A DNA stretch of 64,000 bases, taken from the NCBI RefSeq assembly GCF_021533195.1, contig NZ_JAJNKB010000005.1, positions 186,001 to 250,000 on the forward strand. Reading direction: 5' to 3'. Position 1 is the first letter of the stretch, and the number at the start of each line of letters is the position of its first letter. Below the pieces are notes generated by a model. The model worked only from the letters and a program-made list of their open reading frames with translations, was not told the origin of the DNA and made no database searches. This DNA is from Portibacter marinus (GTDB taxonomy: Bacteria > Bacteroidota > Bacteroidia > Chitinophagales > Saprospiraceae). The position numbers were made by a program, and so were the translations under genes. Shown piece by piece: positions 45,399 through 64,000 of this stretch.

Positions 45399-45407
45399 AA
45401 TTAAATC

Positions 45408-47303: not shown

Positions 47304-47332
47304 AATTTATTTCGATAATGAACCTGTGACTA

Positions 47333-47890: not shown

Positions 47891-47895
47891 AAGGA

Positions 47896-48498: not shown

Positions 48499-48531
48499 TT
48501 TTACCGATTGACTATAATCTGTTGATATAAC

Positions 48532-49506
48532 CTAAGACTGAAATCCGTTTTGATGCTTTAAAAAGTCCTTTGCGAAGTAGGATATGATCAGATCAGCACC
48601 CGCTCGCTTGAAACTAAGAAGGAGTTCATGCACCAATTTTTTTTCGTCTATCCAGCCTTTTTCTGCAGCAGCCTTGATCATGGAATATTCTCCACTGACA
48701 TTGTAGGCAACCAATGGGATATCAAAGGCAGCATCTAGTTTAGTTATAATATCCATATAACTCATGGCTGGTTTGACCATGATAAAGTCTGCACCTTGAT
48801 CAATGTCAATTTGTGTCTCTACAATAGCTTCTTTGCTGTTGCCCGGATCCATCTGGTAAGTGGATCGATCACCCTGCTGTGGAGCTGAATCAGCTGCTTC
48901 ACGAAAGGGGCCATAAAAAGAAGAAAAATATTTTGCAGAGTAAGACATGATGGAAGTCTCGATCAGATGTTCTTTGTCAAGTGCAGTCCTTAATGCCTGA
49001 ATCTGGTTGTCCATCATGGCACTAGGGGCTACGGTGTCTACTCCTGCATTGGAACAGGACACCGCCATCTTTGCAAGAACCTCTAGAGATTCATCATTCA
49101 AGACCTTACCATGGTCGAGAATTCCGCAATGTCCATGGTCAGTATAACTGCAAACGCAAATATCCGCAATAAGCCAGACGTCCGGAAATTTTGATTTTAT
49201 GGCACGGGTAGCTTTTTGAACGATGTTATTCGTATCATAAGCCTTGGTAGCTCTGGCGTCTTTTGTGGACGGAGTACCAAATAAGATGAAAGCCTTGATG
49301 CCCAATTGGGTACATTCTTCAATTTCCTTCAGGATTAGGTCAATACTTTGTTTAAAGATACCGGGCATGGAGGAAATTGTGATTTTTTTTTGATCACCCT
49401 CTACTACAAACAATGGGTAAATCAAATCATCCGCCTGTATATTATTTTCTCTTACGGCAGATCTTACTGAATCTGTTACACGCAACCTTCTTGGTCTTCT
49501 ACTCAT
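48532..49506 (-). CDS. hemB: Delta-aminolevulinic acid dehydratase (porphobilinogen synthase)
   Basis: The 324-residue enzyme has RPRRLRVTDSVRSAVRENN at the start, the metal-binding block CVCSYTDHGHCGIL, catalytic lysine regions SYSAKYFSSFYGPFREA and FIMVKPAMSYMDII, and the C-terminal KRAGADLIISYFAKD. HemB condenses two 5-aminolevulinate molecules to porphobilinogen, feeding heme and siroheme. Cysteines of the block suggest a zinc-dependent form. It is 108 bp downstream of hemD and has a candidate promoter of its own. Confidence 0.96.
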   Translation of the reverse strand: MSRRPRRLRVTDSVRSAVRENNIQADDLIYPLFVVEGDQKKITISSMPGIFKQSIDLILKEIEECTQLGIKAFILFGTPSTKDARATKAYDTNNIVQKATRAIKSKFPDVWLIADICVCSYTDHGHCGILDHGKVLNDESLEVLAKMAVSCSNAGVDTVAPSAMMDNQIQALRTALDKEHLIETSIMSYSAKYFSSFYGPFREAADSAPQQGDRSTYQMDPGNSKEAIVETQIDIDQGADFIMVKPAMSYMDIITKLDAAFDIPLVAYNVSGEYSMIKAAAEKGWIDEKKLVHELLLSFKRAGADLIISYFAKDFLKHQNGFQS

Positions 49507-49524
49507 AATGATTTATATGTGACG

Positions 49525-49552
49525 CGAAGATAAATGATTACAATTGGATCAA
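49525..49552 (-). promoter_or_regulatory. Candidate promoter of hemB
   Basis: On the minus strand, TTG (49552-49550) and TATCTTCG (49532-49525; 7 of 8 to TAnnTTTG) have a 17-bp spacer. Transcription would begin about 12 bases before the hemB ATG. This suggests hemB can be expressed apart from the sulfur operon upstream. Confidence 0.5.
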
Positions 49553-49614
49553 CTTAATTGTTTGTAATGATTGGGTAATTTCGAAAGGAAGAAGTTGCTT
49601 TATAACAACGCAAA

Positions 49615-50349
49615 TCATCTGGCTGATTGCACGATGGCATCTAACATTCCTTGAAAAGTGTGGCTTTCACCTACCATTGCTTCCTGATTGAAACTAGCAA
49701 GAATGGAATCAGCAGTCGTTGTTCCTATCGCCGCAAATTTCACGTGACTGGGAACGTGAAGCCTGTATTTTTCCAATTGTGTGTTAAACGAATCAACAGC
49801 AGAAGGGCTGCAAAAGCTGATAATGTCTGGAGATGTGGCAAATAGATGTTGCCAATCTTCTAATGCGTGAAAATATGAGACCGTATGGTAAACCTCAACT
49901 TGCATAAATAATTTGGCCTTGTCCTTTAAGACTTGCAACGTTTCGTAGCGACTCAAATTCCCTCCGATATAACAAATGCTTTCCTCAGTTGTAGAAGGGA
50001 GTTCTTTAGCTAAAATGAGAGATGTATAATGGGAAGGAATGAAGTCAATTTCATATCCATAATCTTCGACGAGTCCAGCGGTTTTAGGACCAACGCAAGC
50101 TATTTTATGATTATTGAGGTTGATTATATTTTCACTTTGGTCAAAAAAGGATTTAACACCATTTTGGGATGTAAATATTAACCAGTCGTAATTTTCTTCG
50201 ATTTCATACTTGACTTGATCGGTCAAAGTTTGATAAGCAAAATCAATCAAGGGAAAATCTATCCAATTAATTTGAGGATATCTTGTTTTGATTTCTGCCA
50301 AATTATTTTCTGCTCTGGTCAATACAACGGTAGATCTATTTCCATTCAT
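49615..50349 (-). CDS. hemD: Uroporphyrinogen-III synthase
   Basis: The 244-residue protein is divergent in sequence, as HemD usually is, but has the expected pattern: WLIFTSQNGVKSFF, KIACVGPKTAGLVEDYGYEIDFIP, SICYIGGNLSRYETL, IISFCSPSAVDSFNTQL and FAAIGTTTADSI. HemD closes hydroxymethylbilane to uroporphyrinogen III, the branch point of heme and siroheme. It lies 19 bp after the ferredoxin gene in the sulfite-reduction operon, where it supports siroheme supply. Confidence 0.88.
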   Translation of the reverse strand: MNGNRSTVVLTRAENNLAEIKTRYPQINWIDFPLIDFAYQTLTDQVKYEIEENYDWLIFTSQNGVKSFFDQSENIINLNNHKIACVGPKTAGLVEDYGYEIDFIPSHYTSLILAKELPSTTEESICYIGGNLSRYETLQVLKDKAKLFMQVEVYHTVSYFHALEDWQHLFATSPDIISFCSPSAVDSFNTQLEKYRLHVPSHVKFAAIGTTTADSILASFNQEAMVGESHTFQGMLDAIVQSAR

Positions 50350-50368
50350 GGTTTTTCTTGATTTTATC

Positions 50369-50695
50369 CTATTCGCTCCCTAAATGGGCCAATCTTACTT
50401 TCAATCCATGAATGTCCTCAGTTACCTTGATCTGGCATCCAAGTCTGGAGTTGTCCTCCACAAACAAAACCTGGTCCAACATAATTTCTTCATCTTCTGA
50501 AGGTTCAGGAAGCTCATGATCACTTTCCACATACATGTGACAACTCGCGCACAGAGCCATGCCACCACAAGTGCCGTCTACATCTAAATCTGAAGCTTTG
50601 CAAACTTCCATTAGATTTAAATCAATATCCAAAGGAATTTCTATATCGTGCAGCTCACCTTCTCGATCTGTAAGGTGTATTGTAATTTCGTCCAT
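50369..50695 (-). CDS. 2Fe-2S ferredoxin (adrenodoxin type)
   Basis: The 108-residue protein (MDEITIHLTDREGEL) has the cluster motif C-x5-C-x2-C in CGGMALCASC, with the fourth Cys in LGCQI, as in adrenodoxin-type ferredoxins. It likely carries electrons from the reductase encoded just upstream to the sulfite reductase or APS reductase. A start 18 bp earlier would overlap the reductase gene, so the ATG at 50695, leaving a 7-bp gap, is preferred. Confidence 0.9.
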   Translation of the reverse strand: MDEITIHLTDREGELHDIEIPLDIDLNLMEVCKASDLDVDGTCGGMALCASCHMYVESDHELPEPSEDEEIMLDQVLFVEDNSRLGCQIKVTEDIHGLKVRLAHLGSE

Positions 50696-50702
50696 CAATC
50701 CA

Positions 50703-51719
50703 TTAAAATGCATTCACGCCCTGAACAGTCGTGTATTTAAAACTTAGTTTTTTATCAGGGTACATGTATTTGAATGCTGATTGCACCGCCAAAGTTCCCT
50801 CATGGAAGCCACAAAGTATTAATTTTAATTTACCTGGATATGTATTAATATCACCAATTGCATAAATACCTGGAATATTCGTAGAGTAATCTGTGGTATC
50901 AACCTCAATCGCATTCTTACTGATATTCAATTCCCAATCAGCGATCGGTCCAAGCTTTGGCGACAGTCCAAAAAGAGGTATGAAATTGTCAGCTGGTAGT
51001 TTGATTTGACCTTCTGTCTTATGATTTAAAATCACTTCCTTCAACACTCCATTACCGTTCAACTCCTTAGCTTCGGTATCTGTCAGCAGATTGACTCTGC
51101 CCTGGCCTGCGAGAACAGCGACTTTTTCTGCGCTATCGATGGCACCCCTAAAACTACTTCGCCTGTGTACCAGTGTCACCTCTTCGGCTACATCTGCTAA
51201 AAAGATGGTCCAGTCTAATGCAGAATCTCCGCCCCCTGCGATCACAACCTTTTTATTTCGATAGACTTCAGGATCTCGGATGATATAATCCACGCCCTTG
51301 TCTTCATATTTTTCAAGGTTTTCAAGGGCCGGTTTTCGAGGTTCAAAACAACCTAAACCTGCGGCAATGGCAATGGCCTTAGCTTTTATAATGGTACCTC
51401 TTGAAGAAGTGACCATGAAAGAACCATCGTCAAGTTTTTGTAAAGCCTGAGCTCTCTCACCTAATGTAAAGGTCGGTTTAAATGGCTCAATCTGTTTCAT
51501 TAAATTGTCAATCAGGTCTCCAGCTAAAATAGAAGGATATCCGGGGATGTCGTAAATAGGTTTCTTGGGATAGATTTCGGCACATTGACCACCAGGAATA
51601 GGTAGTGCATCAATCAGGTGACATCTCATTTTTAATAATCCAGCTTCAAAAACGGTAAACAGACCAACCGGTCCTGCTCCTACAATTAGCAAGTCAGTAT
51701 CTACACTATTTTGACTCAT
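50703..51719 (-). CDS. Ferredoxin-NADP+ reductase, thioredoxin-reductase-like
   Basis: The 338-residue flavoprotein has the FAD-binding GAGPVGLF, PGGQCAEIYPKKPIYDIPGYP, the NAD(P)H-binding GGGDSALDW and the C-terminal IPGIYAIGDINTYPGKLKLILCGFHEG. It lacks the CxxC redox motif of thioredoxin reductase, which marks the YumC/TrxR-like ferredoxin-NADP reductases. With the 2Fe-2S ferredoxin encoded downstream it forms an NADPH-to-ferredoxin chain for sulfite reduction. It overlaps cysH by 14 bp. Confidence 0.92.
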   Translation of the reverse strand: MSQNSVDTDLLIVGAGPVGLFTVFEAGLLKMRCHLIDALPIPGGQCAEIYPKKPIYDIPGYPSILAGDLIDNLMKQIEPFKPTFTLGERAQALQKLDDGSFMVTSSRGTIIKAKAIAIAAGLGCFEPRKPALENLEKYEDKGVDYIIRDPEVYRNKKVVIAGGGDSALDWTIFLADVAEEVTLVHRRSSFRGAIDSAEKVAVLAGQGRVNLLTDTEAKELNGNGVLKEVILNHKTEGQIKLPADNFIPLFGLSPKLGPIADWELNISKNAIEVDTTDYSTNIPGIYAIGDINTYPGKLKLILCGFHEGTLAVQSAFKYMYPDKKLSFKYTTVQGVNAF

Positions 51720-52449
51720 TTAATTCTTTTTTATTGGTAAAATAATGAGTGTGTAAGCCACACTCGGTTTTTTCTGAATCCGCCCACCTTCCATTTCGCC
51801 CTTTGCCTTTAACTGTGCAATGAGTGCATCCTACAGAACCATAACCGAATTCTGCCAATGGATGTTTAGGTAATCCAAAATAATTCATTTCGTATAAAAA
51901 TTGGCCTTCTTCCATATCGATCATCGGATGAAACTTATATAAGTCTCCATGAGGTGCAAAGATACCTAAATCTGATCTGAAATCAGTTTGAAAACCTAGC
52001 ACACCTGAAACCCAAATCTTTTTTCCTTTTTTAACCTTATCAAGTGGTGCAATTTTATTGATGGCACAACACATTTTGGGATGATCATTCCACCATTCTT
52101 CTTCGAATGTAAGAGCATGTTCCTGCTGTAGAGGTTGAATTTCTACAATTTCTAAGCCAAACCGCTCAGAAAGTTGATTTTTATAGATAATGGTTTCTTC
52201 AAATAGATAGCCGGTATTGATAAAATGAACCTTTTGTTTTGGGTTAACTTTGCTCAATAAGAATAGCAAATAGGAAGAGTTGGTACCAAAAGAGGAAGTG
52301 AAAAGTATTTCATCTTCGTCAAAATATTGGTAAAGCTTCCTTAGTCTTTCTTCCGGATTTAAATTCTCAAAAATGCCATTGTACTTACCTATTGAAAACC
52401 GCTCAAAATCAAAACGCTCTTCCTTTGTCTCCTTACTAGAAATCATCAA
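51706..52449 (-). CDS. cysH: Adenylyl-sulfate (APS) reductase
   Basis: The 247-residue protein has the nucleotide-binding LFTSSFGTNSSYLLFLL, the PAPS-reductase fold (WVSGVLGFQTDFRSDL), and four cluster cysteines, in KMCCAINK and GCTHC, followed by the catalytic ECGLH ending. The paired CC and CxxC mark the 4Fe-4S APS reductase type rather than cluster-free PAPS reductase. It reduces APS to sulfite and AMP. Sulfate adenylyltransferase is not in the window. It overlaps genes on both sides. Confidence 0.93.
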   Translation of the reverse strand: MMISSKETKEERFDFERFSIGKYNGIFENLNPEERLRKLYQYFDEDEILFTSSFGTNSSYLLFLLSKVNPKQKVHFINTGYLFEETIIYKNQLSERFGLEIVEIQPLQQEHALTFEEEWWNDHPKMCCAINKIAPLDKVKKGKKIWVSGVLGFQTDFRSDLGIFAPHGDLYKFHPMIDMEEGQFLYEMNYFGLPKHPLAEFGYGSVGCTHCTVKGKGRNGRWADSEKTECGLHTHYFTNKKELNESK

Positions 52450-53048
52450 TTCTTAAATTCTTTTAGTTCAATCATACTTTTAGTCAAATCGTTAAGGATT
52501 TTGACTTTTTCTTCAAAATTTCGCTTCAACTTGCCGCGAAAGGCATGTAAGTTTTGTAACAATTGGTTGGTATCTTCTGGAAATACTTCTTCGAAAACCT
52601 GCCTAAGTCGTTTAGCCAGGGTAGGGGATTTGCCATTAGTAGATATAGCAATTTTAAGATGCCCTTTAGTCACGATGGATCCCAAATAAAAATCGCAAAG
52701 GTCTGGAGTATCTGCCACATTTACAAGTTTTCCTTTGGCTTTTGCCACTTTCCAAACCTCTTTGTTTAAAGATTCAATGTTGGTTGCTGCGATCACGAGA
52801 TCGTATCCTTCAACATCTTCATCTGAAAATTCTTTCTGTTCAATCTTGAAACTGGTCTCATAATAACCTTCCATCATCGCCCAAATACGATCATTGATTT
52901 CTGGTGCTACGATCTTTACATGGGTGATGGGGCTGCTTTTTAACATGAAAAACAATTTTTCATATCCCACTTCACCCGCACCAACGACAAGTACTTTCAG
53001 TCGGTCAAGCCTGAAAAATACCGGAAACAACTGATTTTTCTGTTGCAT
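52446..53048 (-). CDS. Precorrin-2 dehydrogenase/sirohydrochlorin ferrochelatase (Met8/CysG-N type)
   Basis: The 200-residue protein has NAD-binding VLVVGAGEVGYEKLFFML, then DLVIAATN and LVNVADTPDLCDFYLGSIVTKGHLKIAISTNGKSPTLAKRLRQ. This is the Met8p/SirC pattern for oxidising precorrin-2 to sirohydrochlorin and inserting iron. Together with the CobA enzyme upstream it makes siroheme, the cofactor of the sulfite reductase. The gene overlaps cobA by 44 bp and cysH by 4 bp. Confidence 0.93.
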   Translation of the reverse strand: MQQKNQLFPVFFRLDRLKVLVVGAGEVGYEKLFFMLKSSPITHVKIVAPEINDRIWAMMEGYYETSFKIEQKEFSDEDVEGYDLVIAATNIESLNKEVWKVAKAKGKLVNVADTPDLCDFYLGSIVTKGHLKIAISTNGKSPTLAKRLRQVFEEVFPEDTNQLLQNLHAFRGKLKRNFEEKVKILNDLTKSMIELKEFKN

Positions 53049-53826
53049 TCTCTACAGTTTTAGAATGTTCTAAATAAGCATTTACTACCTCTCCGATATA
53101 GATTATCGCAGGGGTAGCAATGCCAGCTTTGCTAACTTTCTCTCGAATCTCATTTATTGTACCATAGACCGCCTTTTGATGACAAAGCGTTCCATTTTGA
53201 ATAACTGCTATTCCTAGATTTGCTCTATTAATTTCAAGATACTTTTGAACTATTTCATCAAGCTTTCCCAAGCCCATTAACACTACAACTGTACCTTGAA
53301 GATCTGTGGCTTCTAAAAAGTCCTTACTCAAGTTTCCATTTTTACCTACAGCGGTGACAACATGAAAACTACGACTAATATTTCTTAGCGTGACTGGTAG
53401 TCCATTCCAGGCGCTCACTGCAGTAGCACTGGACAAACCGGGAATAATTTCTACCGGAATCCCTAATTTTTCTGCATGTATTAGTTCTTCGAATCCTCGT
53501 CCGAAAACAAATGGATCTCCTCCCTTCAGGCGGACAACATGACCGATTCTTACAAAATCGATTAGTTTGTCATTGATTTCTTCCTGCGTTGCGAAATGTT
53601 TTGCAGCTCGTTTTCCTACAAAAATTTTCAATGCATGAGAAGGAGCTTCAGCAATAAGTGCTGGATGAACCAATGCATCATACAATAAGACATCTGCTGA
53701 TTGAATGGTCTTCAAACCTCTTAAGGTAATCAGATCCGGATCTCCTGGTCCAGCTCCAACGAGTGATATTTTATTCATTGAGTCTTGTTGCATGTTTCTT
53801 TCCTTTAAGCCAATTTGATTATGCAT
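53005..53826 (-). CDS. cobA: Uroporphyrinogen-III C-methyltransferase
   Basis: The product has the SUMT signature MNKISLVGAGPGDPDLITLRG, then RLKGGDPFVFGRG, IPGLSSATAVSAWNGLPVTLR and VVVLMGLGKL. It transfers two methyl groups from SAM to uroporphyrinogen III to give precorrin-2 for siroheme. The longest start (53826, 273 residues) overlaps the sulfite reductase stop by 8 bp, which favours translational coupling, but the family-typical start is 48 bp further in (MNKIS, 53778), with another ATG at 53793. Confidence 0.93.
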   Translation of the reverse strand: MHNQIGLKERNMQQDSMNKISLVGAGPGDPDLITLRGLKTIQSADVLLYDALVHPALIAEAPSHALKIFVGKRAAKHFATQEEINDKLIDFVRIGHVVRLKGGDPFVFGRGFEELIHAEKLGIPVEIIPGLSSATAVSAWNGLPVTLRNISRSFHVVTAVGKNGNLSKDFLEATDLQGTVVVLMGLGKLDEIVQKYLEINRANLGIAVIQNGTLCHQKAVYGTINEIREKVSKAGIATPAIIYIGEVVNAYLEHSKTVENATEKSVVSGIFQA

Positions 53827-55951
53827 TGTAGTAGCTTGCTGTGACCAATAAATCGTCAGGACTCTGGGTTTTATCTGATCTTACTGCATGAACCTTTTGA
53901 TTAAAAGCTGAAGCGTCTTCAAGATATTTGACAGCAAATTCCTGATCCGCATTTTCTGTCTTCATTCTCAATACATATTCTGGAAAATTTGATTCTTTTG
54001 CCCAAAGAGGGTCTTGTCCATAGTGTGTTTGGAAATCTTCCAGAATTTTAATGTGGGTATTGCACTTCACATCCTTAGCAAGGAGAAGCGCCTTAGCTCC
54101 TACTATAAATGAAGTGTATGCATGATAGATGGCTTCTGAATACTCACTGATCTCTAATTTTGCCCAGGCACTTTCTAGTTTTTCATCTGAATCTTTAACG
54201 ATCGAAGAAAGCATGTCCAATGCTACACCTGCGCATTCACCCACTCCAATAGCTTGTACATATTCTTCCTCATGTCCCCAATCCAGAAAATCTAAATTGG
54301 TCAGGCTATCTTTGTCCGCCAGGTCTTTAAGTAATTCGTAAAAATATTTTTTACCTAATCGTACGGCATATTCTGTAAAGTGCTCGTCGATTTCAGCCAC
54401 TTCATGGTAGTCATTTAGAAGTATGCTGATGGCTTCAGGGATTCTCTTCGTAGGTAACTTAATGATCTTTTCGGCGATATACGCTTTATGTCCCACCACA
54501 CCGCCACCTAACACTACCTGCATAGCGGGTAGAATTCGACCATCGACTTTAATTGAACTTCCATGAAGTCCTATACTGGCGGCCATGTGCTGTCCGCAGG
54601 CATTCATACAGCCACTAATTTTGATGCTGATATCTTCATTTATTAAGAAAGCCTCATGTGTTTTTTTGATGTGATTTTCAATTTCTTCAGCCAATCCAGT
54701 AGAATTGGTTACGGCCAGATTACACGTGTCGGTACCCGGGCAGGCTGTTACGTCTAAAATGGTTTCAGCCCCAAAGTCCGCAAGACCTATGATGTTTAGC
54801 TCATTGTAGATTTGCTCAATGTCCTGAGCCGCTGCAAATCTCAATAAGATTCCCTGGTGAACAGTAAAGCGGATGTCATCTGCAAAATATCGTTTGACAA
54901 TTTTAGAAAGCGCACGCGCTCTGTCCGATGAAATATCTCCAAGCCTGATTTTAATATTAACTGAATAGTAATCTGTACCTTTTATTTTTTTGAGATTGGT
55001 TTGTTTCCACAACTCAAATGCTCTATCGTCGGTAGCTTTCAGCTCATAAGGAATGGCTTGTTTTTTGGGCTGGGGAGCCTGCCATAAGTCTTCAGCAATT
55101 TCTATTTGCTGAGCAGGTAATGCTTTGAGTTCTTCATGAATAAGTCTTAATAATTCTTCCTGCCCAAAGCTCTTGAGTAAGAACTTCATTCTGGCCTTAA
55201 ATCTCTTTTCCCGCTCTCCATATCTATCGAATACACGAATGGCTGCTTCCATAAAGGGTATGATCTCCTCAGTCGATATAAACTCACTGATGGTTGCAGC
55301 TTCCATTGCTTGTGCACCCAATCCTCCTGCTAATAGTAGTTTAAAACCACGCTGTCCCTTATTAATTCTGGGTATAAAGCCAAAATCATGAAAGTATGTA
55401 AAAGCTGAATCCGCATCGCTGGATGAAAAGGCAATTTTAATTTTCCTGCCCATTTCCTGGCAAATGGGATTTCTTAAAAAATAGTTGTAAACACCAACGA
55501 CATATGGTGTAATATCAAAAAGCTCTTCAGGGTCGATGCCCGCATTAGAAGATGCTGTAATATTTCTGACAGTATTTCCACAAGCTTCTCTTGCATTCAT
55601 GCCAACGTCAGCCATCAATTCCCAAACCTTAGGAGAATTTTTAAGCTTGACATAGTGAAATTGAATATTTTGCCTGGTTGTAATATGCAGATTGCCGGTT
55701 GCATATGCGTCAGAGATGTCAGCAAGTCTGTACAATTGATCGGCTGTAACATGTCCAAATGGAATTTTGGTTCTAAACATATGGACACCCAGTTGCCTTT
55801 GACCGTAAACGCCTCTTGTTAGTCTATAATGTTTGAATTTGTCTTCATTCATTTGACCTTTTTTGAATTGCTCAATTTTGAACTTAAGCTCATCTACATC
55901 AGCGTTGGCCTCTGCAATAAATTGTTCTTTTGTTCTACTCGTTACTGACAT
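53819..55951 (-). CDS. Siroheme/4Fe-4S sulfite reductase (nitrite/sulfite reductase family) with helical C-terminal extension
   Basis: The 710-residue protein starts MSVTSRTKEQFIAEANADVDELK. It has duplicated ferredoxin-like and siroheme-binding halves (YGQRQLGVHMFRTKIPFG, TTRQNIQFHYVKL, GNTVRNITASSNAG; later SVNIKIRLGD and FTVHQGILLRF) and the cluster cysteines in CPGTDTCNLAVT and SGCMNACGQH. It reduces sulfite to sulfide with six electrons. After residue 545 or so comes an extra helical domain (EEYVQAIGVGECAGVALDML, YSEAIYHAYTSFIVGAKALLL) resembling HEPN. A farther start at 55993 would lie inside the attenuator hairpin and was rejected. First gene of the sulfur operon. Confidence 0.92.
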   Translation of the reverse strand: MSVTSRTKEQFIAEANADVDELKFKIEQFKKGQMNEDKFKHYRLTRGVYGQRQLGVHMFRTKIPFGHVTADQLYRLADISDAYATGNLHITTRQNIQFHYVKLKNSPKVWELMADVGMNAREACGNTVRNITASSNAGIDPEELFDITPYVVGVYNYFLRNPICQEMGRKIKIAFSSSDADSAFTYFHDFGFIPRINKGQRGFKLLLAGGLGAQAMEAATISEFISTEEIIPFMEAAIRVFDRYGEREKRFKARMKFLLKSFGQEELLRLIHEELKALPAQQIEIAEDLWQAPQPKKQAIPYELKATDDRAFELWKQTNLKKIKGTDYYSVNIKIRLGDISSDRARALSKIVKRYFADDIRFTVHQGILLRFAAAQDIEQIYNELNIIGLADFGAETILDVTACPGTDTCNLAVTNSTGLAEEIENHIKKTHEAFLINEDISIKISGCMNACGQHMAASIGLHGSSIKVDGRILPAMQVVLGGGVVGHKAYIAEKIIKLPTKRIPEAISILLNDYHEVAEIDEHFTEYAVRLGKKYFYELLKDLADKDSLTNLDFLDWGHEEEYVQAIGVGECAGVALDMLSSIVKDSDEKLESAWAKLEISEYSEAIYHAYTSFIVGAKALLLAKDVKCNTHIKILEDFQTHYGQDPLWAKESNFPEYVLRMKTENADQEFAVKYLEDASAFNQKVHAVRSDKTQSPDDLLVTASYYNA

Positions 55952-55967
55952 TATCCTAATTTGATTC

Positions 55968-56007
55968 AAAAAAAAATCCCTTCGAAATTTCATCTCGAAG
56001 GGATTTT
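55968..56007 (-). terminator. Attenuator terminator ahead of the sulfur-assimilation operon
   Basis: On the minus strand, AAAATCCCTTCGA and TCGAAGGGATTTT form a perfect 13-bp stem around a 9-base loop (GATGAAATT), followed by a run of nine Ts. It lies 16 bp upstream of the sulfite reductase start codon and 20 bp after the stop of the Cys-rich leader ORF. A terminator between a promoter and the first enzyme gene only makes sense as conditional termination. Confidence 0.92.
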
Positions 56008-56026
56008 AGTATACTATATAAATACA

Positions 56027-56122
56027 TTAAAGATCCGATCCAGATGAATCATTCATCATGCAACAACAACAGCACATCATTGCTATTCTTATGGTCCCGG
56101 CTTTAAATGTAATATCATTCAT
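56027..56122 (-). CDS. Cys/Met-rich leader peptide of a transcription attenuator
   Basis: This 31-codon ORF starts ATG AAT GAT ATT ACA and contains IAMMCCCCCMM: five consecutive Cys codons (56060-56074) flanked by two Met codons on each side. It then reads NDSSGSDL and stops. A strong intrinsic terminator follows 20 bp after its stop and the sulfite reductase gene begins right after that. Segment 56048-56033 of the ORF, just behind the Cys-Met run, can pair 13 of 16 bases with the 5' arm and loop of the terminator. The arrangement is that of classical leader-peptide attenuation, with ribosome stalling at Cys codons preventing termination. An A/T-rich stretch but no clear Shine-Dalgarno precedes the ATG. 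Confidence 0.85.
   Translation of the reverse strand: MNDITFKAGTIRIAMMCCCCCMMNDSSGSDL
56033..56048 (-). promoter_or_regulatory. Candidate antiterminator strand within the leader ORF
   Basis: On the minus strand this reads TTCATCTGGATCGGAT. It pairs with ATCCCTTCGAGATGAA (the terminator 5' arm plus part of the loop): 7 contiguous pairs, then a 2-bp and a 4-bp block, 13 of 16 in all. A ribosome halted in the Cys codon run leaves it free; one reaching the stop codon at 56027 covers it. Pairing is read from sequence, the switching is inferred. Confidence 0.65.
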
Positions 56123-56461
56123 AATTTATTCGTCTCTTGCTTTAAGACATGACAATATTGTGCCAATTAATTCATAATTCCAAAGATCAGGCGAAGTTTT
56201 AACAAAATCTTTAATGTTGATAAATGACCATATGTTCATATGTTATTATGTTGGAAATCAAATAGTTATAGGTTTCGAAATTTTTAACAAGGCAAGCGGC
56301 CATTGACCTAAAACCCTTTAAAGAACTTTATCATTACAACTTTATTTAGCATAATCTAAATAAATATTTAGACAGTACTAAATAAAATGATTTACAAATG
56401 TCCGAATATTGCAGTGAAATTTTTGGCCTAGTGGAGCTTTTTAGTTTACACTTTTAAACAA
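56123..56461. other. Promoter region of the sulfur operon (339 bp without a gene)
   Basis: This AT-rich spacer separates the leader ORF from the LOG-family gene. On the minus strand GATCTTTG (56188-56181) is a 7-of-8 match to the -7 box, with a TTG 14 bp upstream, which is a poor spacing. Two CATATG palindromes stand 8 bp apart at 56229-56242, and TCTAAAT-AAAT-ATTTAGA (56355-56372) is a perfect inverted repeat. These are possible operators with no identified regulator. Confidence 0.4.
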
Positions 56462-57574
56462 TTAAACCTTAATCGGCGGATTTTTTTCGATAAAATGGAC
56501 TACTTCTTCCGGGTCATCGGTCAGCATGAGCAGTCGTTGATATGCCTTTTGATTTGAAAGCTGTTTCAGTACCGGAAAGAGCATGGTATCCATCTCATAT
56601 CGCTGTCTGCCCAGAAAAACCATTGGACTGATATATCCAAATGTAGCGTAATGATTCTGAGCAGCATCCATAAAAATTTCCTGCGTTGTTCCAGCACTTC
56701 CGGGAGCGTAAACGATGCCGTGTAAACATATCGCAAGTAAGGTATCTTCACGGATACTATTGGAAAAATACTTCGCTATATGTGATGCGAAGACATTGCT
56801 GGGCTCATGTCCATAAAACCAGGTGGGTATGGCCAGGCTTTCCTGCCCTTCGGGAAACTCATGGAGCACTTCTTTAGCAATTTCCATATATCCATCATCC
56901 GTATAATGGGGTGCAAAAGAAAGCTTTCGAATGGCTTCTGCAAGCGCTTGATCTGATTTTCCTGCAAAATATGCCCCCAAATTGGCCGCTTCCATAATAC
57001 CCGGACCTCCACCAGACGCCACAAAATATCCATGTTCTGTGATAGCTTTAGCAGTATAGGCTGTTTTGCTGAAGAAAAGGTCTGTTCTCAAAGTCCCATG
57101 TCCACCCATAAATCCAACCACTTTGAGTTCATAATCCCCCTTTGACCTTGCACCTAGTAATTCTCTTAAAGCGTGGTCCACGGCATGATCATGTATTCTT
57201 TGCCATAAAGATTCATTTATTGACGGGGAAAACCTGGTCTCTGAAAAATGTTCGTAAATGTTCAGATCCTTCGTTCTTCCTTTTTCTATCACTTTTTCCA
57301 GTTCCTGCCAGGTGTAAAGAGAGGCTCTGTAAGGATTGTACGGTAACTCATTATAATCCGGCAATATAAGCGCGCCATCATGAATGAGTTCCACCTCCAG
57401 ATCTTTATCTAATTCACATCCAAGAAAAGTGAGTGTACATCTTTTGAATTTATCCGCAGATATTTGCTGATCCTTTAGATTAATATTTTGAAAAGTAATG
57501 TCTTTGTGATATGCCCCATCTGCAAGTAAAGTCTTAAATTCCTCCAACGTATTTATAACCAATTCCTTTCTCAC
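56462..57574 (-). CDS. LOG-family protein (Rossmann, lysine-decarboxylase-like fold)
   Basis: The 370-residue protein has the LOG-type signature in its second half: VVGFMGGHGTLR, YFVASGGGPGIMEAANLGAYFAG and IVYAPGSAGTTQEIFMDAA, corresponding to the GGGxGxMG and PGGxGTxxE motifs. Small LOG proteins release cytokinin-type bases by phosphoribohydrolase action; larger ones like this carry an N-terminal extension of about 130 residues with unknown role. It overlaps the preceding gene by 4 bp, which implies co-transcription. Confidence 0.82.
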   Translation of the reverse strand: MRKELVINTLEEFKTLLADGAYHKDITFQNINLKDQQISADKFKRCTLTFLGCELDKDLEVELIHDGALILPDYNELPYNPYRASLYTWQELEKVIEKGRTKDLNIYEHFSETRFSPSINESLWQRIHDHAVDHALRELLGARSKGDYELKVVGFMGGHGTLRTDLFFSKTAYTAKAITEHGYFVASGGGPGIMEAANLGAYFAGKSDQALAEAIRKLSFAPHYTDDGYMEIAKEVLHEFPEGQESLAIPTWFYGHEPSNVFASHIAKYFSNSIREDTLLAICLHGIVYAPGSAGTTQEIFMDAAQNHYATFGYISPMVFLGRQRYEMDTMLFPVLKQLSNQKAYQRLLMLTDDPEEVVHFIEKNPPIKV

Positions 57575-59004
57575 AATAATTCATCAATTTTTTCAACCAG
57601 CCAATTTCGGGAAGCAACACTGCCATCTCTGGCCAGATCATCTTTCAGCTTTTTAAGTTTAGGTTTAGAGTAGGCTAATTTCATTATTTTCTCAATATAA
57701 CTGTTGAAGTTGCCGAAGATCAATTTATATTGATCCGGTATGTTTTTATGTCTGACCAGAAATACTTTAAATGCATTCACTGAAGACTGCGCCAGATCCT
57801 TGTTGTTCATTTCGTAATAAGCAATAATAAGCATAAGTTTAGAATCAAGGGTATACACAAGGTCATCAAACTCAACTTCATTCAACAAGTCAATTAATCC
57901 ATCATAGTCCTTCTTAAATAAAGCCACTCTAGCCAGATTAAATTGGAGTGCATTCGCCCGATACTTAGGATTGATCTTTTGAGCATACTCTTTGATGAAT
58001 TTTTCCACCCACTCAATGTCACCTAGTCTTAAGCCTATGATGCAAATATTTCTGAAGGATGTAGGTGTGATTTCGCCATTGACCAGTAAAACTTCTTTTT
58101 CTAAACCTTCATTATAAATGGTCAACAGTTCCGAATTGAAGTTTTTCATCCCTTTATTTACCTTTCTGACACAATAGTTAAGCGCTGCATCAAATATGTG
58201 CTTCGCTTCTTGCTGAGGAAAAAGGTTGAGGTTTTTCTGTATCAGTTCTTTAAGTTTGTAATAGTGTTCGACTTCTTCCGGCTCTATTGTCGTCAAGTAG
58301 ATCTGATAGTAAATACCAATAGTGGGAATATTGTAATATTTTTTGTCTTTGACCAGTTCCACGATGTCTTCTATAAAAAGCAATTCAATATCGTGTTTGA
58401 CGACGTTCTTCCACGATAGCATGGAACAGTAGTAGCGAAGCTTCTCGGCTATAAAGAAATAGTCCAGGTTGTCATTGATGTCCTGAATGTTGTAGAATTG
58501 AATTTTAGATTTTGAGGCAGATTTTTTTTCAAACTCACTGGTTAGATTAAAACGATGTTTTTCTGCCATATATTGATAGAAGTAGTAGTTGGCATTTCGT
58601 TCTAAATGTCGTTCGGAAAGGCGTTCAGTAGTTTTAAGTACAGAGTTGTAAAGTTCCGGCATCTTATTATCAATCACCGCTTCCAATAGGCTGGTAGATT
58701 CCTTTAGAGGCTGAGCTTTAAATTGTTCGACTGATAAAAATTGTTCTAGCAAGCTGAGTAGATCAGTATTGTACTTGCGAAATCTGGAATCCTTGAAACC
58801 CTCCTGTTTAAAAACCTTTTTCCAAATTTGCTCCTTTGTGTAATCTTCAGTTTCCCCTTTCTTGATTTCCTGATAATAGAAGTCAAATAAATTGATGAGC
58901 TTCTCATTCTGATTGAAATACGGAGAGTATATAAACTTTTTAAACCTGTTTAAGTCATAGATACTCAGGCGGTTCAATGCTCTATAAAACTTAAGATTCT
59001 GCAT
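57571..59004 (-). CDS. Large helical-repeat protein of unknown function
   Basis: The 477-residue protein starts MQNLKFYRALNRLSIYDLNRFKKFIYSPYFNQNEK and is predicted almost entirely alpha-helical, with TPR-like hairpins. There is no signal peptide or catalytic motif. The N-terminal block (FIYSPYFN) recurs in Bacteroidota hypothetical proteins, but no function is recognised. It is translationally linked (ATGA-type 4-bp overlap) to the LOG-family gene that follows, so a joint role is possible. Confidence 0.7.
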   Translation of the reverse strand: MQNLKFYRALNRLSIYDLNRFKKFIYSPYFNQNEKLINLFDFYYQEIKKGETEDYTKEQIWKKVFKQEGFKDSRFRKYNTDLLSLLEQFLSVEQFKAQPLKESTSLLEAVIDNKMPELYNSVLKTTERLSERHLERNANYYFYQYMAEKHRFNLTSEFEKKSASKSKIQFYNIQDINDNLDYFFIAEKLRYYCSMLSWKNVVKHDIELLFIEDIVELVKDKKYYNIPTIGIYYQIYLTTIEPEEVEHYYKLKELIQKNLNLFPQQEAKHIFDAALNYCVRKVNKGMKNFNSELLTIYNEGLEKEVLLVNGEITPTSFRNICIIGLRLGDIEWVEKFIKEYAQKINPKYRANALQFNLARVALFKKDYDGLIDLLNEVEFDDLVYTLDSKLMLIIAYYEMNNKDLAQSSVNAFKVFLVRHKNIPDQYKLIFGNFNSYIEKIMKLAYSKPKLKKLKDDLARDGSVASRNWLVEKIDELL

Positions 59005-59452
59005 TGCTAGATTTAGGAAGTTTCTATATATAACAAAATTAAAAATATAACAATCGGAGTAAAATGTTGGTGCTTTTTCAGTACTAAAATACGTAAATTA
59101 ACGAAGGCGAAATTAAAGTTACCACTTCCCATGACCTGACGTCGACAACAAACCATAGTGTCGGCGTCTTTACTTTAAAACTTTTTTTTATCTCGGCCGT
59201 ACCAAGTTTGTAGCCTAACAACTAAATCAAGGGGCTTTCAAACTATTTTTACCCTTTAAAACTTAAATATTTTGATTTAATTTAATATGTAATCTGTTTA
59301 AACCCATTTGAATATATTAGAAAAAATATGATATGTGTGCTTTTGAGTGAAAATTGACCGTTTTTTTATATTAAAAAAAAATATATGTAATCGAATTATT
59401 CTTTTTTCTTCTTATCTTGCTTCCTGTAATAACCATTTTAACTGCAATTCCC
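59005..59452. other. 448-bp AT-rich spacer with a stable hairpin upstream of a T9SS protein gene
   Basis: GACGTCGACA (59138-59147) and TGTCGGCGTC (59159-59168) form a 10-bp stem with one G-U pair when transcribed rightward, loop of 11 bases, followed by a T-rich stretch (TTTACTTTAAAAC then eight Ts). Nothing coding was found. TATCTTGC at 59414-59421 resembles a weak -7 box about 32 bp before the ATG of the next gene. The hairpin could be a terminator or leader structure. Confidence 0.4.
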
Positions 59453-61915
59453 ATGACAAAAGTGATTATTAAATCGCTCTTAAATGTTGTGGTAGTATTT
59501 CTACTACTGCCAGTTTTGGGTATGTCTCAGTCAAATCCTCAGGTTCTATATAAAGATATCATAGATTCTGAATTTCATTTTTCCTTCATTAGTAGTGCTG
59601 CACCTCCTGTAGTTTTAGAACACCCATCCCATGGTAGTTTTAGCTTACAAACTACACCTGATGGTGAAAATACCTATAACTATACTTATGCACCAGGTAT
59701 AGCAGAAGGGGAGACACAAGCAGTTATTGAGTATTATAGAGTAAATGAAGTTACTGGTGCCTTAACTCCTGACTATACCACTATATATTTCAGAATCACA
59801 CCTTCGCTTATAAGTTGTTCAGATGATCGAATCATCATTGAGAAGAATGCTGGTATTACTTCTGTTGATGTGTTGGCCAATGACAGTAGAACTGATGGGC
59901 CGTTGGTTTTAGAGTCTTTACTTTACTCGGAAAATGGAGCAGCCACAATCATCAATGGTAGGATTATGTTTATGCCAGATCATGATTTTGTGGGAGATGC
60001 GTTTATTTATTATAGCGTAAAAGACCAAAAAGGGAAGAAAGGATCTGGTTTGCTTAAAGTTAAGGTGGTTGATCTTGCGACTATTCCACAGAAAAAAGAG
60101 CTCTTTTATATTAGTTATGGCGGAGAACCAGTTGAAATAGATTTACCATTGAACGGTTTTAAGGTTAATGGAAATTTGAGCTATGGTTCTTTCAAGCAAG
60201 TCGACGGTGCTAATATGTATATTCCGTCGGGCAATCAATCCACTACAGAAGTTTTTGAACTTAAAAAGGATGGAATTACGAGGAAGATCAATGTTAAAAT
60301 GATCTATATGCCTCGTCCTAATAGTTGGGTAAGAGATGATGTGAGATATACGACAAAGGGGGAGAAAGTTACCCTTGATGTAACCAAGAATGACCTTAAG
60401 AAAAATCAGCAGATCATTCAGCACTCCAGTGACTTGGTTCCCGGGTTATCCAGTGGCCTATTTACCTATGAACCGCCATCCTACTACACGGGTTCTAGGA
60501 AGATGACTTACACAGTCAGCGATGGTTATGATAGTGAAACTGGATTTGTTACGGTTCATGTTAATAATTTTAATCCTCAAACAAGACATGATTATGAATT
60601 TCTAGCATTGGGGAATAATACGCTGGTCATCAACTATAGTATTCCGATCGAGAAATTCACTTTTGAATTAATAGAAGCGCCTGAACGTGGTAGTGTAGTC
60701 ATTAACGATGGTAAATCCACCATTAATTTTGAATGTGACGCCATTTCGGGTAACAACCTTATTCTTTATGATCCAGATTATAATTATACAGGGAAAGATG
60801 CTTTTAGAGTAAGATACTGCGTAGAAGGATCATGTAAGAATATCGAAATTGCTGTTGATGTAGTGCAGAACAAAGAAGATATTTGTCATTGCTATACAGG
60901 GTGTGTGTGGGCTGGTGATGCCAATAATGATGGAGTGGTCAATGCTTCTGATTTAATTTCAATGGCGAGTGCTTTTGGCGAAAGTGGTGCCGACTCTGAC
61001 ATGGGTGGTGTATGGTTGGGAAGGAAAACAGAGGATTGGAATTTTGTTTCTGACAATGGGATTAATGCTAAGTTTGCCGATTCTGACGGAAATGGGCTTG
61101 TTGATGAATTCGATTTTGATGCGATTGAGGAAAACTACAATCAAAATCATGCACTGGTTCCTCCTCAGTTTATAGAAAGACGAGATTTCCCTTTCACTAT
61201 TGATCTGGAGAAAGATACCGTTTATGCGGGAGATTTGATCACATTTGATATTGGAATTGGAAACGCATATTACCCAGCACTAGAGGTCAATGGTTTGTCT
61301 TACTCCCTAGGATTTCCGCCCTCTTTTGTAGACTCTACATCATTTAAAGTTGCTTATCAAAGCAACTCTTGGTTTGGCATTGATGAAAAATTAGTTTCAA
61401 TTTCGAAACAAATACGGAAAGGATGGGTCGAATCAGCTGTCGGCAGATTGAGTCCAGCACATAAGAGTGGTCATGGGGTTATTGGTAAGATTAGTTTTAT
61501 TGTAGAAGAAGATGTAGTGGGTGGTTTTAGAGTAAAAAATGATGGAATTATACCACTAACGATTCAAGTTTCAGACATTCAAGTTGCAACAGGAGATGGT
61601 GCCATTGGTGCACTTGACGACACTGGAATAACAATTTATATCAATGTGAATAAAAGGTCTGAAGAAAAGGAAAATGCTCGACTTTTGGTATTTCCTAACC
61701 CCGCTCAAAATGTCCTAAATCTTCACATGAATGGAGGACATGAAATTCTTTCTTATCAGGTATTGAACATCAATGGACAGGTGGTGAAAGCCCAATCTGG
61801 TCTTCTAAATCGCTCTGAGGTTTTTTATGTCAATGATTTGAATCCAGGCGTATACATCTTAAAGGCCAATACTACTTCTGGAATAAGGGTAGAGAGGTTT
61901 GAAGTTCTAAAATAA
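59453..61915 (+). CDS. Large secreted protein with cadherin-like/dockerin-like repeats and T9SS sorting domain
   Basis: The 820-residue protein starts MTKVIIKSLLNVVVVFLLLPVLGMSQ, a signal peptide. The first 470 residues hold Ig/cadherin-like modules with repeated VLANDSRTDGPLVLES-type and VTKNDLKKN-type segments. At about 488-555 two EF-hand-like loops, GDANNDGVVNASDLISMASAF and DSDGNGLVDEFDFDAIEENY, form a dockerin-like calcium-binding unit. A cohesin-like beta-domain and a T9SS sorting domain (LVFPNPAQNVL to RVERFEVLK) follow. Dockerin repeats in Bacteroidota are common in cell-surface proteins; no cellulosome is implied. Function unknown. An ATG 36 bp upstream was rejected because the signal peptide fits the later one. 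Confidence 0.83.
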   Translation: MTKVIIKSLLNVVVVFLLLPVLGMSQSNPQVLYKDIIDSEFHFSFISSAAPPVVLEHPSHGSFSLQTTPDGENTYNYTYAPGIAEGETQAVIEYYRVNEVTGALTPDYTTIYFRITPSLISCSDDRIIIEKNAGITSVDVLANDSRTDGPLVLESLLYSENGAATIINGRIMFMPDHDFVGDAFIYYSVKDQKGKKGSGLLKVKVVDLATIPQKKELFYISYGGEPVEIDLPLNGFKVNGNLSYGSFKQVDGANMYIPSGNQSTTEVFELKKDGITRKINVKMIYMPRPNSWVRDDVRYTTKGEKVTLDVTKNDLKKNQQIIQHSSDLVPGLSSGLFTYEPPSYYTGSRKMTYTVSDGYDSETGFVTVHVNNFNPQTRHDYEFLALGNNTLVINYSIPIEKFTFELIEAPERGSVVINDGKSTINFECDAISGNNLILYDPDYNYTGKDAFRVRYCVEGSCKNIEIAVDVVQNKEDICHCYTGCVWAGDANNDGVVNASDLISMASAFGESGADSDMGGVWLGRKTEDWNFVSDNGINAKFADSDGNGLVDEFDFDAIEENYNQNHALVPPQFIERRDFPFTIDLEKDTVYAGDLITFDIGIGNAYYPALEVNGLSYSLGFPPSFVDSTSFKVAYQSNSWFGIDEKLVSISKQIRKGWVESAVGRLSPAHKSGHGVIGKISFIVEEDVVGGFRVKNDGIIPLTIQVSDIQVATGDGAIGALDDTGITIYINVNKRSEEKENARLLVFPNPAQNVLNLHMNGGHEILSYQVLNINGQVVKAQSGLLNRSEVFYVNDLNPGVYILKANTTSGIRVERFEVLK

Positions 61916-61976
61916 TCTTTTGTTTTTTCTTTTTAAGCTCGGATGTTAAACTGTTCGATATTCACGAGTTTTGGGA

Positions 61977-61997
61977 CTGGCAAATTCCATTTGTCGG
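61977..61997. repeat. Single dispersed palindromic repeat
   Basis: CTGGCAAATTCC then ATTTGTCGG carries the GGCAAATGGAATTTGCC core in reverse, with two mismatched positions in the arms, preceded by TTGGGA as at 39731. It is intergenic, after the T9SS protein gene. The rest of the 61916-62119 gap shows no gene. Confidence 0.75.
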
Positions 61998-62119
61998 AAA
62001 AGTACCTAAAGCCTCTGGTCAGAAAAATACCGAGTCCCTAGCACAAACTAAGTCCACTTGAAAAGTCTTTTAGATGTTAACCATATCTAACCTTTTCTAC
62101 CTTTTTTAAGTAGCCAGTA

Positions 62120-62839
62120 TCACAACCTGTTTTGATTGACAATATCCAACAATTCATCCCTGTAATTTTTGCCGATGGGCAATTGCTTGACTTTGCCATT
62201 TTCTAAGACTTCGACAGTATTTCCAACCACAGCCTGGATCTTATTCAATCCCAAAATATAGGAACGGTGAATTCGCTTAAAGAACTTCTCAGGAAGTTTG
62301 TCCTCCAGGCTCTTCATAGTCTGAAGGGTTATGACTCTGCCAGTTTCCATCCTTATAATGACATAATCTTTCAGGCCCTCAATATATAAGATGTCATTGT
62401 AATTAACCTTGATCAATTTCTTATCAGCCTTCACAAAAATATACTCATCATCGTCATTCCCAGCTGATCCACTATCTGACTTTGAGCCAATCTTCTCTGT
62501 AGCTTTATTTACCGCCTTCATGAAGCGATCTAGTGAAATAGGTTTAACCAAATAGTCCACAGCGTCCATTTCAAAACCTTCTACAGCATAATTTGAATAA
62601 GCTGTTGTAAATATGACTTCCGGCGGATTTTTCAAGGATTTATAGAAATCGATACCAGTCAATTGAGGCATTTGAATATCAAGAAAAATAAGGTCAATAT
62701 CATGCTTCTTTAAAGCATCATTGGCTTCAAATGCATTTTCACACCTTTGAACTAAGTTGACTTCCGGCATCTGTTCGATAAATGTTTCAAGAACATCTAG
62801 GGCCAAGGGTTCATCATCTATTATTAATACATCGATCAT
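62120..62839 (-). CDS. LytTR-family response regulator
   Basis: The 239-residue protein has a receiver domain with the acidic pair in VLIIDDEP, phosphoacceptor Asp54 in FLDIQMP, and YLVKPI, and a LytTR DNA-binding domain from about 140 (EYIFVKADKKLIKVNYNDILYIEGLKDYV, then FFKRIHRSYILGLNKI). It pairs with the kinase encoded 13 bp upstream on the same strand. Target genes cannot be read from the window. Confidence 0.93.
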   Translation of the reverse strand: MIDVLIIDDEPLALDVLETFIEQMPEVNLVQRCENAFEANDALKKHDIDLIFLDIQMPQLTGIDFYKSLKNPPEVIFTTAYSNYAVEGFEMDAVDYLVKPISLDRFMKAVNKATEKIGSKSDSGSAGNDDDEYIFVKADKKLIKVNYNDILYIEGLKDYVIIRMETGRVITLQTMKSLEDKLPEKFFKRIHRSYILGLNKIQAVVGNTVEVLENGKVKQLPIGKNYRDELLDIVNQNRL

Positions 62840-62852
62840 TTCACAAATTTAG

Positions 62853-63905
62853 TTAGTTATTTAATTTTATTTTCAAATCTATACAGTAGTTATTGGGGCT
62901 GTCCTTAATGCTCAGTTCATGGCTATCAGGATAAAGCAGGTTCAGTCGTCGTTTGACATTGACAAGTCCGATACCTCCACTTTTTTTCCCGTTAGGATTG
63001 GGCGCAGATTCAGCTTTGCTATTGTCAATAGAAAAGTGGACATCATTCTCTGATATCTTCATCAATATTTTCACATATCCCCCGCTTAATTGATTACTCA
63101 AGCCGTGTTTAAAACTATTCTCCAGAAAGGGAATGAATAATAGCGGAGCTATTTTTTGATCCTTTATCAGACCGGATACCAAAAAATCTATTTTTATATT
63201 TTTTTTCTGCCTTAGTTTTTCAAGTTCCAGGTAATTCTCCAGATAATTCACTTCCTTCCTCAAAGGCACCCTTTCCTCATTACATTCATAAAGCATATAT
63301 CGCATCATTTCTGAAAGTTTCAGAACGATTTCAGGAGCTTGGTCTGACTTCTTTAAGGTCAAGGCATAAAGGTTGTTGAGCGTGTTAAACAGAAAGTGAG
63401 GATTGATTTGAGATTTGAGAAAATTTAGCTCGGACTCCGTATTTTTATGTTGAAGTTCCATCTTTTCCACACTTCCTTTCTGCCAGTCTAGAATGATTTG
63501 AAAGATGGTAGAAATAGACCCATAGAAGAGCAGTTGGAAAAAAATAATGCCTTGCCTCGATATAAAATAGGTCTGAACTCCCGGTTGATCACTGAACAGC
63601 AGGTAAAAAATAATGGTCTTTAAGGGGGTGAGAATGATGGCTGTAAGAACCAGTGCAATGGCATAATTGATTCCACTATTTCTTCTAAGATAATTGGGAA
63701 TTAAAAAATATAAATTGAAGTACACAATGACCATGTAAAAACAGATCGTCACTAACTCTTTGATAAGTGTAAAAACGCTTGAGGGGTTAGGGTCTATTAA
63801 TATCAATGCAATGTAGAGCCCTACCCAGAAAAGAGCATGAAATAAAGTATCCCGTTTTGCCCAATCCGGTATGTTGAACTTCAAATCCGATCTAATACTC
63901 ATCAT
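62853..63905 (-). CDS. LytS-type sensor histidine kinase
   Basis: The 350-residue protein has four hydrophobic segments in the first 140 residues (around 21-38, 47-68, 82-103, 119-140), then the His_kinase block NPHFLFNTLNNLYAL with His170, and the ATPase regions PLLFIPFLENSFKHG and GGIGLVNVKRRLNLLYP. It is the membrane kinase partner of the LytTR regulator; stimulus unknown. The start uses one of two adjacent ATGs. Confidence 0.92.
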   Translation of the reverse strand: MMSIRSDLKFNIPDWAKRDTLFHALFWVGLYIALILIDPNPSSVFTLIKELVTICFYMVIVYFNLYFLIPNYLRRNSGINYAIALVLTAIILTPLKTIIFYLLFSDQPGVQTYFISRQGIIFFQLLFYGSISTIFQIILDWQKGSVEKMELQHKNTESELNFLKSQINPHFLFNTLNNLYALTLKKSDQAPEIVLKLSEMMRYMLYECNEERVPLRKEVNYLENYLELEKLRQKKNIKIDFLVSGLIKDQKIAPLLFIPFLENSFKHGLSNQLSGGYVKILMKISENDVHFSIDNSKAESAPNPNGKKSGGIGLVNVKRRLNLLYPDSHELSIKDSPNNYCIDLKIKLNN

Positions 63906-64000
63906 CTGTATTTACAATGATTCCAACTGAAAATTGGTTTTCCTATGGCTTGTTTTTAGATCAATCATCACCAGCGATCGATGAATCACTTCCAAAAATA
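63906..64000. other. Window edge upstream of the kinase gene
   Basis: These 95 bases presumably hold the start region of the kinase operon. No gene or clear promoter was recognised. Confidence 0.3.

Follow-up and report, generated by a model that had tools for sequence, protein, structure and literature searches.

The question raised by this locus is whether a short ORF that contains consecutive cysteine codons, directly upstream of a sulfite-reductase operon, is a regulatory leader and, if it is, which signal it reads. The window, by which we mean the whole stretch of 64,000 nucleotides of the Portibacter marinus genome that was analysed, had originally been predicted from its letters alone to carry an amino-acid attenuator at this position. 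That reading is supported by conservation in relatives, by an antiterminator and by similar leaders before other cysteine genes, and we put at about 90% the probability that the window leader is a ribosome-mediated attenuator of the trp/his type that senses the charging of tRNA-Cys and may take a second input from the flanking Met codons. The ORF, the terminator, the antiterminator pairing, the spacing, the conservation and the association with particular genes are read from sequence. Translation of the ORF, ribosome stalling, premature termination and a response to cysteine are inferred in the absence of expression data, and the function remains without experimental proof.

The leader region, read from its upstream end, contains the following features.

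56153 to 56184, minus strand: promoter-like segment TTTG...CAATATTG, largely conserved in three members of the genus
56027 to 56122, minus strand: leader peptide ORF MNDITFKAGTIRIAMMCCCCCMMNDSSGSDL, 31 codons plus stop, taken from the ORF list and kept in relatives
56054 to 56080, minus strand: the Cys run with its two flanking Met pairs (ATG ATG on each side)
56060 to 56074, minus strand: five Cys codons, the putative regulatory codons, TGC TGT TGT TGT TGC
55973 to 56007, minus strand: intrinsic terminator with a 16-bp stem and a 3-nt loop (-19.6 kcal/mol), from a terminator scan and folding
55968 to 55976, minus strand: run of nine T behind the terminator, read from the sequence

The ORF list and the codon coordinates agree with the original description of a 31-codon ORF in which five consecutive Cys codons lie between Met pairs. 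The run is followed by 11 codons including the stop, and from the end of the ORF to the first gene's ATG there are 75 nt. A 13-bp terminator with nine Ts had also been described; the terminator and its T run stand, and only the stem length needs correction, as the scan gives 16 pairs. The spacing of 16 bp between terminator and first enzyme gene was likewise right, with 16 nt separating the nine-T run from the ATG at 55951. The segment at 56153 to 56184 (minus strand) may correspond to the promoter type of Bacteroidota. Further upstream, 5' of the leader promoter, a block of AACATA/CATATG units at 56197 to 56253 (minus strand) is strongly conserved in three members of the genus and may be the site of a transcription factor acting as a second level of control.

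Behind the terminator lies an operon of six genes.

53819 to 55951, minus strand: sulfite (or nitrite) reductase, the first gene of the operon (PF01077/PF03460; NirA/CysI-type matches below NCBIfam cut-offs)
53005 to 53826, minus strand: uroporphyrinogen-III C-methyltransferase (ORF list and NCBIfam)
52446 to 53048, minus strand: precorrin-2 dehydrogenase, for siroheme (ORF list and NCBIfam)
51706 to 52449, minus strand: PAPS reductase, cysH (ORF list, NCBIfam and Pfam)
50703 to 51719, minus strand: FAD/NAD(P) oxidoreductase (ORF list and Pfam)
50369 to 50713, minus strand: 2Fe-2S ferredoxin (ORF list and Pfam)

To call this sulfite-reduction operon complete, as had been done, is slightly generous: the six genes are present, but no sulfate adenylyltransferase was recognised by eye among the ORFs listed for 44000 to 64000. 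Tested for membership among ribosome-mediated transcription attenuators, the window leader has a short ORF with a run of cognate codons, an intrinsic terminator before the first structural gene, downstream genes that make the amino acid to be sensed and, on the strength of computation only, an antiterminator that extends into the end of the ORF and cannot coexist with the terminator.

This last element, absent from the original prediction, is formed when the tail of the ORF pairs with the terminator, along its 5' arm and loop.

56029 to 56048, minus strand: predicted 5' segment of the antiterminator, within the end of the ORF, pairing with the 5' arm of the terminator (-16.9 kcal/mol, p 0.02)
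55990 to 56048, minus strand: predicted antiterminator hairpin (-18.5 kcal/mol, by folding), which excludes the terminator

We modelled the ribosome on the assumption that it covers 11 nt downstream of its A site. When the fifth Cys codon occupies the A site, free RNA begins at 56048, which is the first base of the antiterminator; when the stop codon occupies it, free RNA begins only at 56015, beyond the tail. The proposed mechanism would then run as follows. When Cys-tRNA is plentiful, the ribosome would reach the stop codon and cover the end of the ORF (56048 to 56029), the terminator at 56007 to 55973 would form, and transcription would stop 16 nt short of the first gene. With Cys-tRNA in short supply, the ribosome would wait at the Cys codons and leave the tail of the ORF free to pair with the 5' arm of the terminator, and RNA polymerase would read on into the sulfite-reductase operon. 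At equilibrium the prediction slightly favours the terminator (-19.6 kcal/mol) over the antiterminator (-18.5 kcal/mol), and plain folding of the freed RNA gave the terminator at every ribosome position tried. As such, the switch would have to be kinetic, with the antiterminator forming first.

For the conservation of the Cys run we looked for the reductase in 298 genomes from the window's family; 117 gave a match, some of them weak or to other genes, and the family sample consists of 99 reductase loci with at least 300 nt of upstream sequence, in which a poly-Cys ORF was sought within 700 nt upstream. Such an ORF is present on the coding strand in 73 of the 99 loci and on the reverse strand in none (0/99), and mononucleotide-shuffled upstream regions produced one in 1 of 1980 cases. 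The runs of the relatives are built from both codons (459 TGT and 234 TGC), so it is the amino acid that is conserved and not one DNA repeat. Chance or a repeat artefact can thus be ruled out, and the original statement that five Cys in a row is very unlikely to arise by chance is borne out. A lack of conservation in relatives, which had been named as an outcome that would refute the prediction, is not what these family loci show.

The strict pattern is missing from the remaining 26 loci: 4 of them have a weaker or masked Cys cluster, 10 have nothing, and 12 belong to a more divergent group of reductases (45-49% identity), three of which have a SAM-I-type leader about 1 kb upstream. The strict counts miss ORFs that have no ATG (L039) or that exceed 60 codons from their first ATG (L183). 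Some of the 99 loci come from close relatives; the 116 leaders that they contain amount to 115 distinct peptides. Among named loci, of which 78 with at least 300 nt upstream were drawn from the best 80 matches, 20 show the strict pattern on the coding strand and none on the reverse strand (0/78); judged by identical leaders, at least seven of these loci overlap with the family sample. The 20 include loci from Saprospiraceae, Fulvivirga, Marinoscillum, Flexithrix, Cesiribacter, Pontibacter, Botryobacter and Pedobacter, and the Flavobacteriia in this set of 78 had no such leader within 700 nt of their reductase genes. Copy number varies within one genus (g51), with one unit in L119 and two in L124 and L127, and another genus (g7) has no unit in any of its five loci (L028, L157, L158, L161 and L163), which suggests gain and loss. 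The window's own genome contains 35 places with TGY four times in a row, two of which overlap inside the window leader. Of the other 33, all but one (L015) lie within a stop-to-stop frame of at least 120 codons on one strand. A search around these 33, limited to at least four Cys in a row, found no ATG-started CCCC ORF of up to 70 codons with a terminator of -12 kcal/mol or better; the best terminator nearby reached -10.5 kcal/mol (L014).

The amino acids beside the run bear on which signal is read. Across the 115 distinct leaders, Met makes up 84 of 343 residues (24%) in the three positions before the Cys run and 44 of 337 (13%) in the three positions after it, compared to 68 of 1815 (4%) elsewhere. 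The excess upstream may be due in part to additional ATG start codons, but the downstream excess cannot be, and a contribution of methionine is therefore possible. The original suggestion of tRNA-Met as an alternative input is thus partly upheld: the excess beside the run favours it, with the reservation that some of the upstream part may reflect start codons. Methionine as the main signal in place of cysteine is a further step, one that could appeal to the same excess, to the fact that the pathway also feeds methionine and to the SAM-I aptamer that precedes another class of leaders. We regard it as very unlikely, because at least five Cys are present in 103 of the 115 distinct leaders and Met adjoins the run in only 50 of the 115, and because most of the targets found lie on the way to cysteine.

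Cysteine-sensing attenuation at the level of transcription calls on the terminator and on its alternative pairing, and both recur across the family loci. A terminator of -12 kcal/mol or better follows within 130 nt in 111 of the 116 leaders of the window class, compared to 9 of 580 dinucleotide shuffles; among control stretches taken further upstream, 6 of 92 have one. The distance from the last Cys codon to the terminator is 50-74 nt in the middle 80% of leaders, even though the ends of the ORFs vary. Among 110 distinct leaders, the ORF tail paired with the terminator better than in dinucleotide shuffles in 81 (p<=0.05), and a stretch of the same length taken from upstream of the Cys run did so in 14. 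The pairing of the tail sets in at a median of 12 nt past the last Cys codon; its end, in the 81 leaders, is a median of 2 nt past the stop. When each terminator was offered the tails of other leaders, a median of 8% of these paired better than its own, where 50% would be expected without a link, and the cognate tail was within the best 5% in 47 of the 110 leaders, which indicates that tail and terminator change together. The other 29 leaders lie above p 0.05 and include one genus relative (L022, p 0.09); another (L023, p 0.005) has a clear antiterminator.

These numbers also weigh on the possibility that the leader governs the access of ribosomes to the downstream gene, as has been proposed for the poly-Cys ORFs of mycobacteria, with the hairpin only tuning the outcome; other papers cite the mycobacterial leaders of Canestrari 2020 as a case of translational attenuation. 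Cysteine leaders that have no terminator are described for Actinobacteria (PMC1262725) and, in citations of Canestrari 2020, for mycobacteria, and 9 of 12 tested ORFs of the SAM-I-linked class have no terminator of -8 kcal/mol or better. For the window class this reading has very little left to recommend it: strong terminators are nearly universal, the window ORF stops too far (75 nt) from the first ATG to speak for it, and the partner of the antiterminator is the terminator and not the start of the gene.

Attenuation that responds to cysteine gains further support from the genes that stand behind leaders of this type elsewhere. A covariance model (R1), trained only on 37 reductase leaders, was run on 60 genomes, and 50 loci (30 + 20) among the R1 matches listed were examined. 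At least 14 leaders with a Cys run, all followed by a terminator of -11 kcal/mol or better, precede genes that do not encode the reductase; 14 is a minimum because the ORF filter used for the first 30 loci was narrow. Nine are directly before a cysteine synthase, cysH, metY or an oxidoreductase of the pathway type, two before a peroxiredoxin followed by a cysteine synthase, one before a peroxiredoxin and two before RimK-like ligases.

L233, L237, L253, L259 and L262: cysteine synthase, CysM type (PALP family by Pfam)
L231, L234 and L238: peroxiredoxin, with a cysteine synthase next in L231 and L238
L223 and L242: PAPS reductase
L236: O-acetylhomoserine sulfhydrylase (metY)
L249: FAD oxidoreductase resembling that of the window operon
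L228:1628-2668 and L240:1622-2581: RimK/LysX-like ATP-grasp ligases, below NCBIfam cut-offs

The CysM label of the five synthases rests on by-eye likeness to the L231 protein, whose best NCBIfam match is CysM, below the cut-off. The L231 peroxiredoxin (in an apparently shortened frame), the L238 peroxiredoxin and the second gene of L238 were also named by eye, and the L234 peroxiredoxin passes its NCBIfam cut-off. The cysteine synthase of L253 is followed by members of the JAB and ThiS families, and the RimK-like ligases may make a cysteine-containing compound. At weaker E-values R1 also returns ordinary terminators, with an ORF of at least three Cys in a row present in 5 of 20 loci and missing from 15. 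One of these five, from a genus relative (L261), has a CCC ORF and a terminator and was left out of the 14, as no recognisable gene follows within 2.8 kb. We can hardly credit that the Cys-rich peptide is itself active, for example in metal or redox binding, and that the terminator ends its own transcript, for although Cys-rich peptides are generally known to bind metals and some leaders do precede peroxiredoxin genes, the peptides look unrelated by eye outside the Cys run and vary widely in length, the conserved spacing and tail-terminator pairing would be unneeded by a working peptide, and the downstream genes are mostly those of cysteine biosynthesis.

Many loci carry more than one unit. 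Two poly-Cys units in series are found in 43 of the 99 family loci, with a terminator for each unit in 43 of 43, and in 5 of the 14 non-reductase loci (L223, L231, L233, L253 and L259). The unit closer to the gene has on average 7.5 Cys, compared to 5.9 in the other, a difference for which no significance test was made. Recent duplication as the source of the paired units was considered and set aside, with units of one locus only a little more alike than units of different loci (median local score 24 vs 20, p 0.012).

A second class of leader came to light at loci picked for ORFs whose Cys run lies at or near the end of the ORF. There are 15 such ORFs, in Fulvivirga, Marinoscillum, Pontibacter, Botryobacter, Cesiribacter, a Flammeovirgaceae MAG and three genomes of the window's family, and in 15 of 15 a SAM-I aptamer (RF00162, above the Rfam gathering score) stands 4-19 nt before the ORF. 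The genes that follow, named by eye and with the exception of L081 (minus strand), are a ferredoxin and then a metY-like gene, a sulfite reductase or a PAPS reductase. Terminators reaching -8 kcal/mol occur in L053 (-9.1), L061 (plus strand, -13.4) and L081 (minus strand, -8.8 kcal/mol). A mechanism shared by the whole class found no support, as the folds behind the 15 ORFs are heterogeneous (z +0.6 to -3.7). No poly-Cys ORF was found at the 30 top-scoring SAM-I loci of 119 Bacteroidia genomes (0/30), most of which precede other genes, and RF00162 gave no match at 50000 to 60000 of the window. The window's own genome has one SAM-I match (G000:C61:35384-35497, L297), which is without a poly-Cys ORF and precedes a gene that by eye resembles homoserine O-acetyltransferase. 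Taken broadly, Bacteroidota would have a modular family of cysteine attenuators, with pairs in series for one signal (the gene-proximal unit having the higher mean number of Cys) and, in Cytophagales and some Saprospiraceae, a fusion of the SAM-I aptamer with a poly-Cys ORF, a proposal on which we see the odds as evenly balanced.

The trp and his leaders of Proteobacteria are the classical ribosome-mediated attenuators, and like the window leader they combine runs of codons for the end product, an antiterminator that takes in the end of the ORF, an intrinsic terminator and a cognate operon. The window system differs in that it senses cysteine, belongs to Bacteroidota and often comes as two complete units in series. 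Rfam release 15 gave no match at the gathering score for the window leader, the best being His_leader with 26 bits against the required 49 (E 0.73). In Actinobacteria, short Cys-run ORFs precede cysteine genes as they do here, with the Cys codons near the stop and no conserved terminator, Rho being suggested as one possibility (PMC1262725). In contrast, the window leader has a terminator, an antiterminator and 11 codons including the stop past its run, and it does not meet the definition of the actinobacterial type (Cys run near the stop, no terminator). The SAM-I-linked class, with its Cys codons at the very end, is closer to the actinobacterial leaders than the window class is, and it is also this class, and not the window leader, that the SAM-I riboswitch (RF00162) adjoins. 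The uORFC-8-2 motif before cysS in Rhodobacterales shares Cys codons in a uORF and a terminator with the window, and ribosome-mediated attenuation has been proposed for it (PMC8632094), but it has two Cys codons, belongs to Alphaproteobacteria and controls cysteinyl-tRNA synthetase. The Salmonella mgtCBR leader also has two attenuators, which respond to two different signals, ATP and proline (PMC3641672), whereas both units here have Cys runs.

Within the phylum, leader-peptide attenuation has been suggested upstream of amino-acid operons of Flavobacterium psychrophilum (PMC9723704); cysteine occurs once in the main text of that paper, in reference to a protease. For Bacteroidota such attenuation is mentioned in general terms in this paper and in one other (PMC7366714). 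The authors of a survey of premature terminators state that leader peptides had been known to them from Proteobacteria and Actinobacteria alone, and they add Firmicutes (PMC2965389). We recognised no description of a cysteine attenuator in Bacteroidota in the open-licence literature, which was represented mostly by titles and the openings of abstracts, with supplements excluded.

The series duplication and the SAM-I fusion go beyond what the original prediction had found. If true, series duplication for one signal and fusion to a SAM aptamer would be unusual arrangements, the fusion mixing a metabolite-binding RNA with a ribosome-based sensor, and the SAM-I/poly-Cys leader would be a two-input device that turns sulfate-assimilation genes on only when SAM and cysteine are both low. 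Bacteroidota mostly lack Shine-Dalgarno sites. A classical attenuator needs a ribosome that follows closely behind RNA polymerase, and these leaders thus make the coupling of transcription and translation testable in Bacteroidota. They offer a large set of testable cysteine switches in this phylum, before sulfite reductase, cysH, a cysteine synthase-JAB-ThiS operon, metY and others, and they point to genes whose link to cysteine had not been recognised, such as the RimK-like ATP-grasp ligases and the peroxiredoxins.
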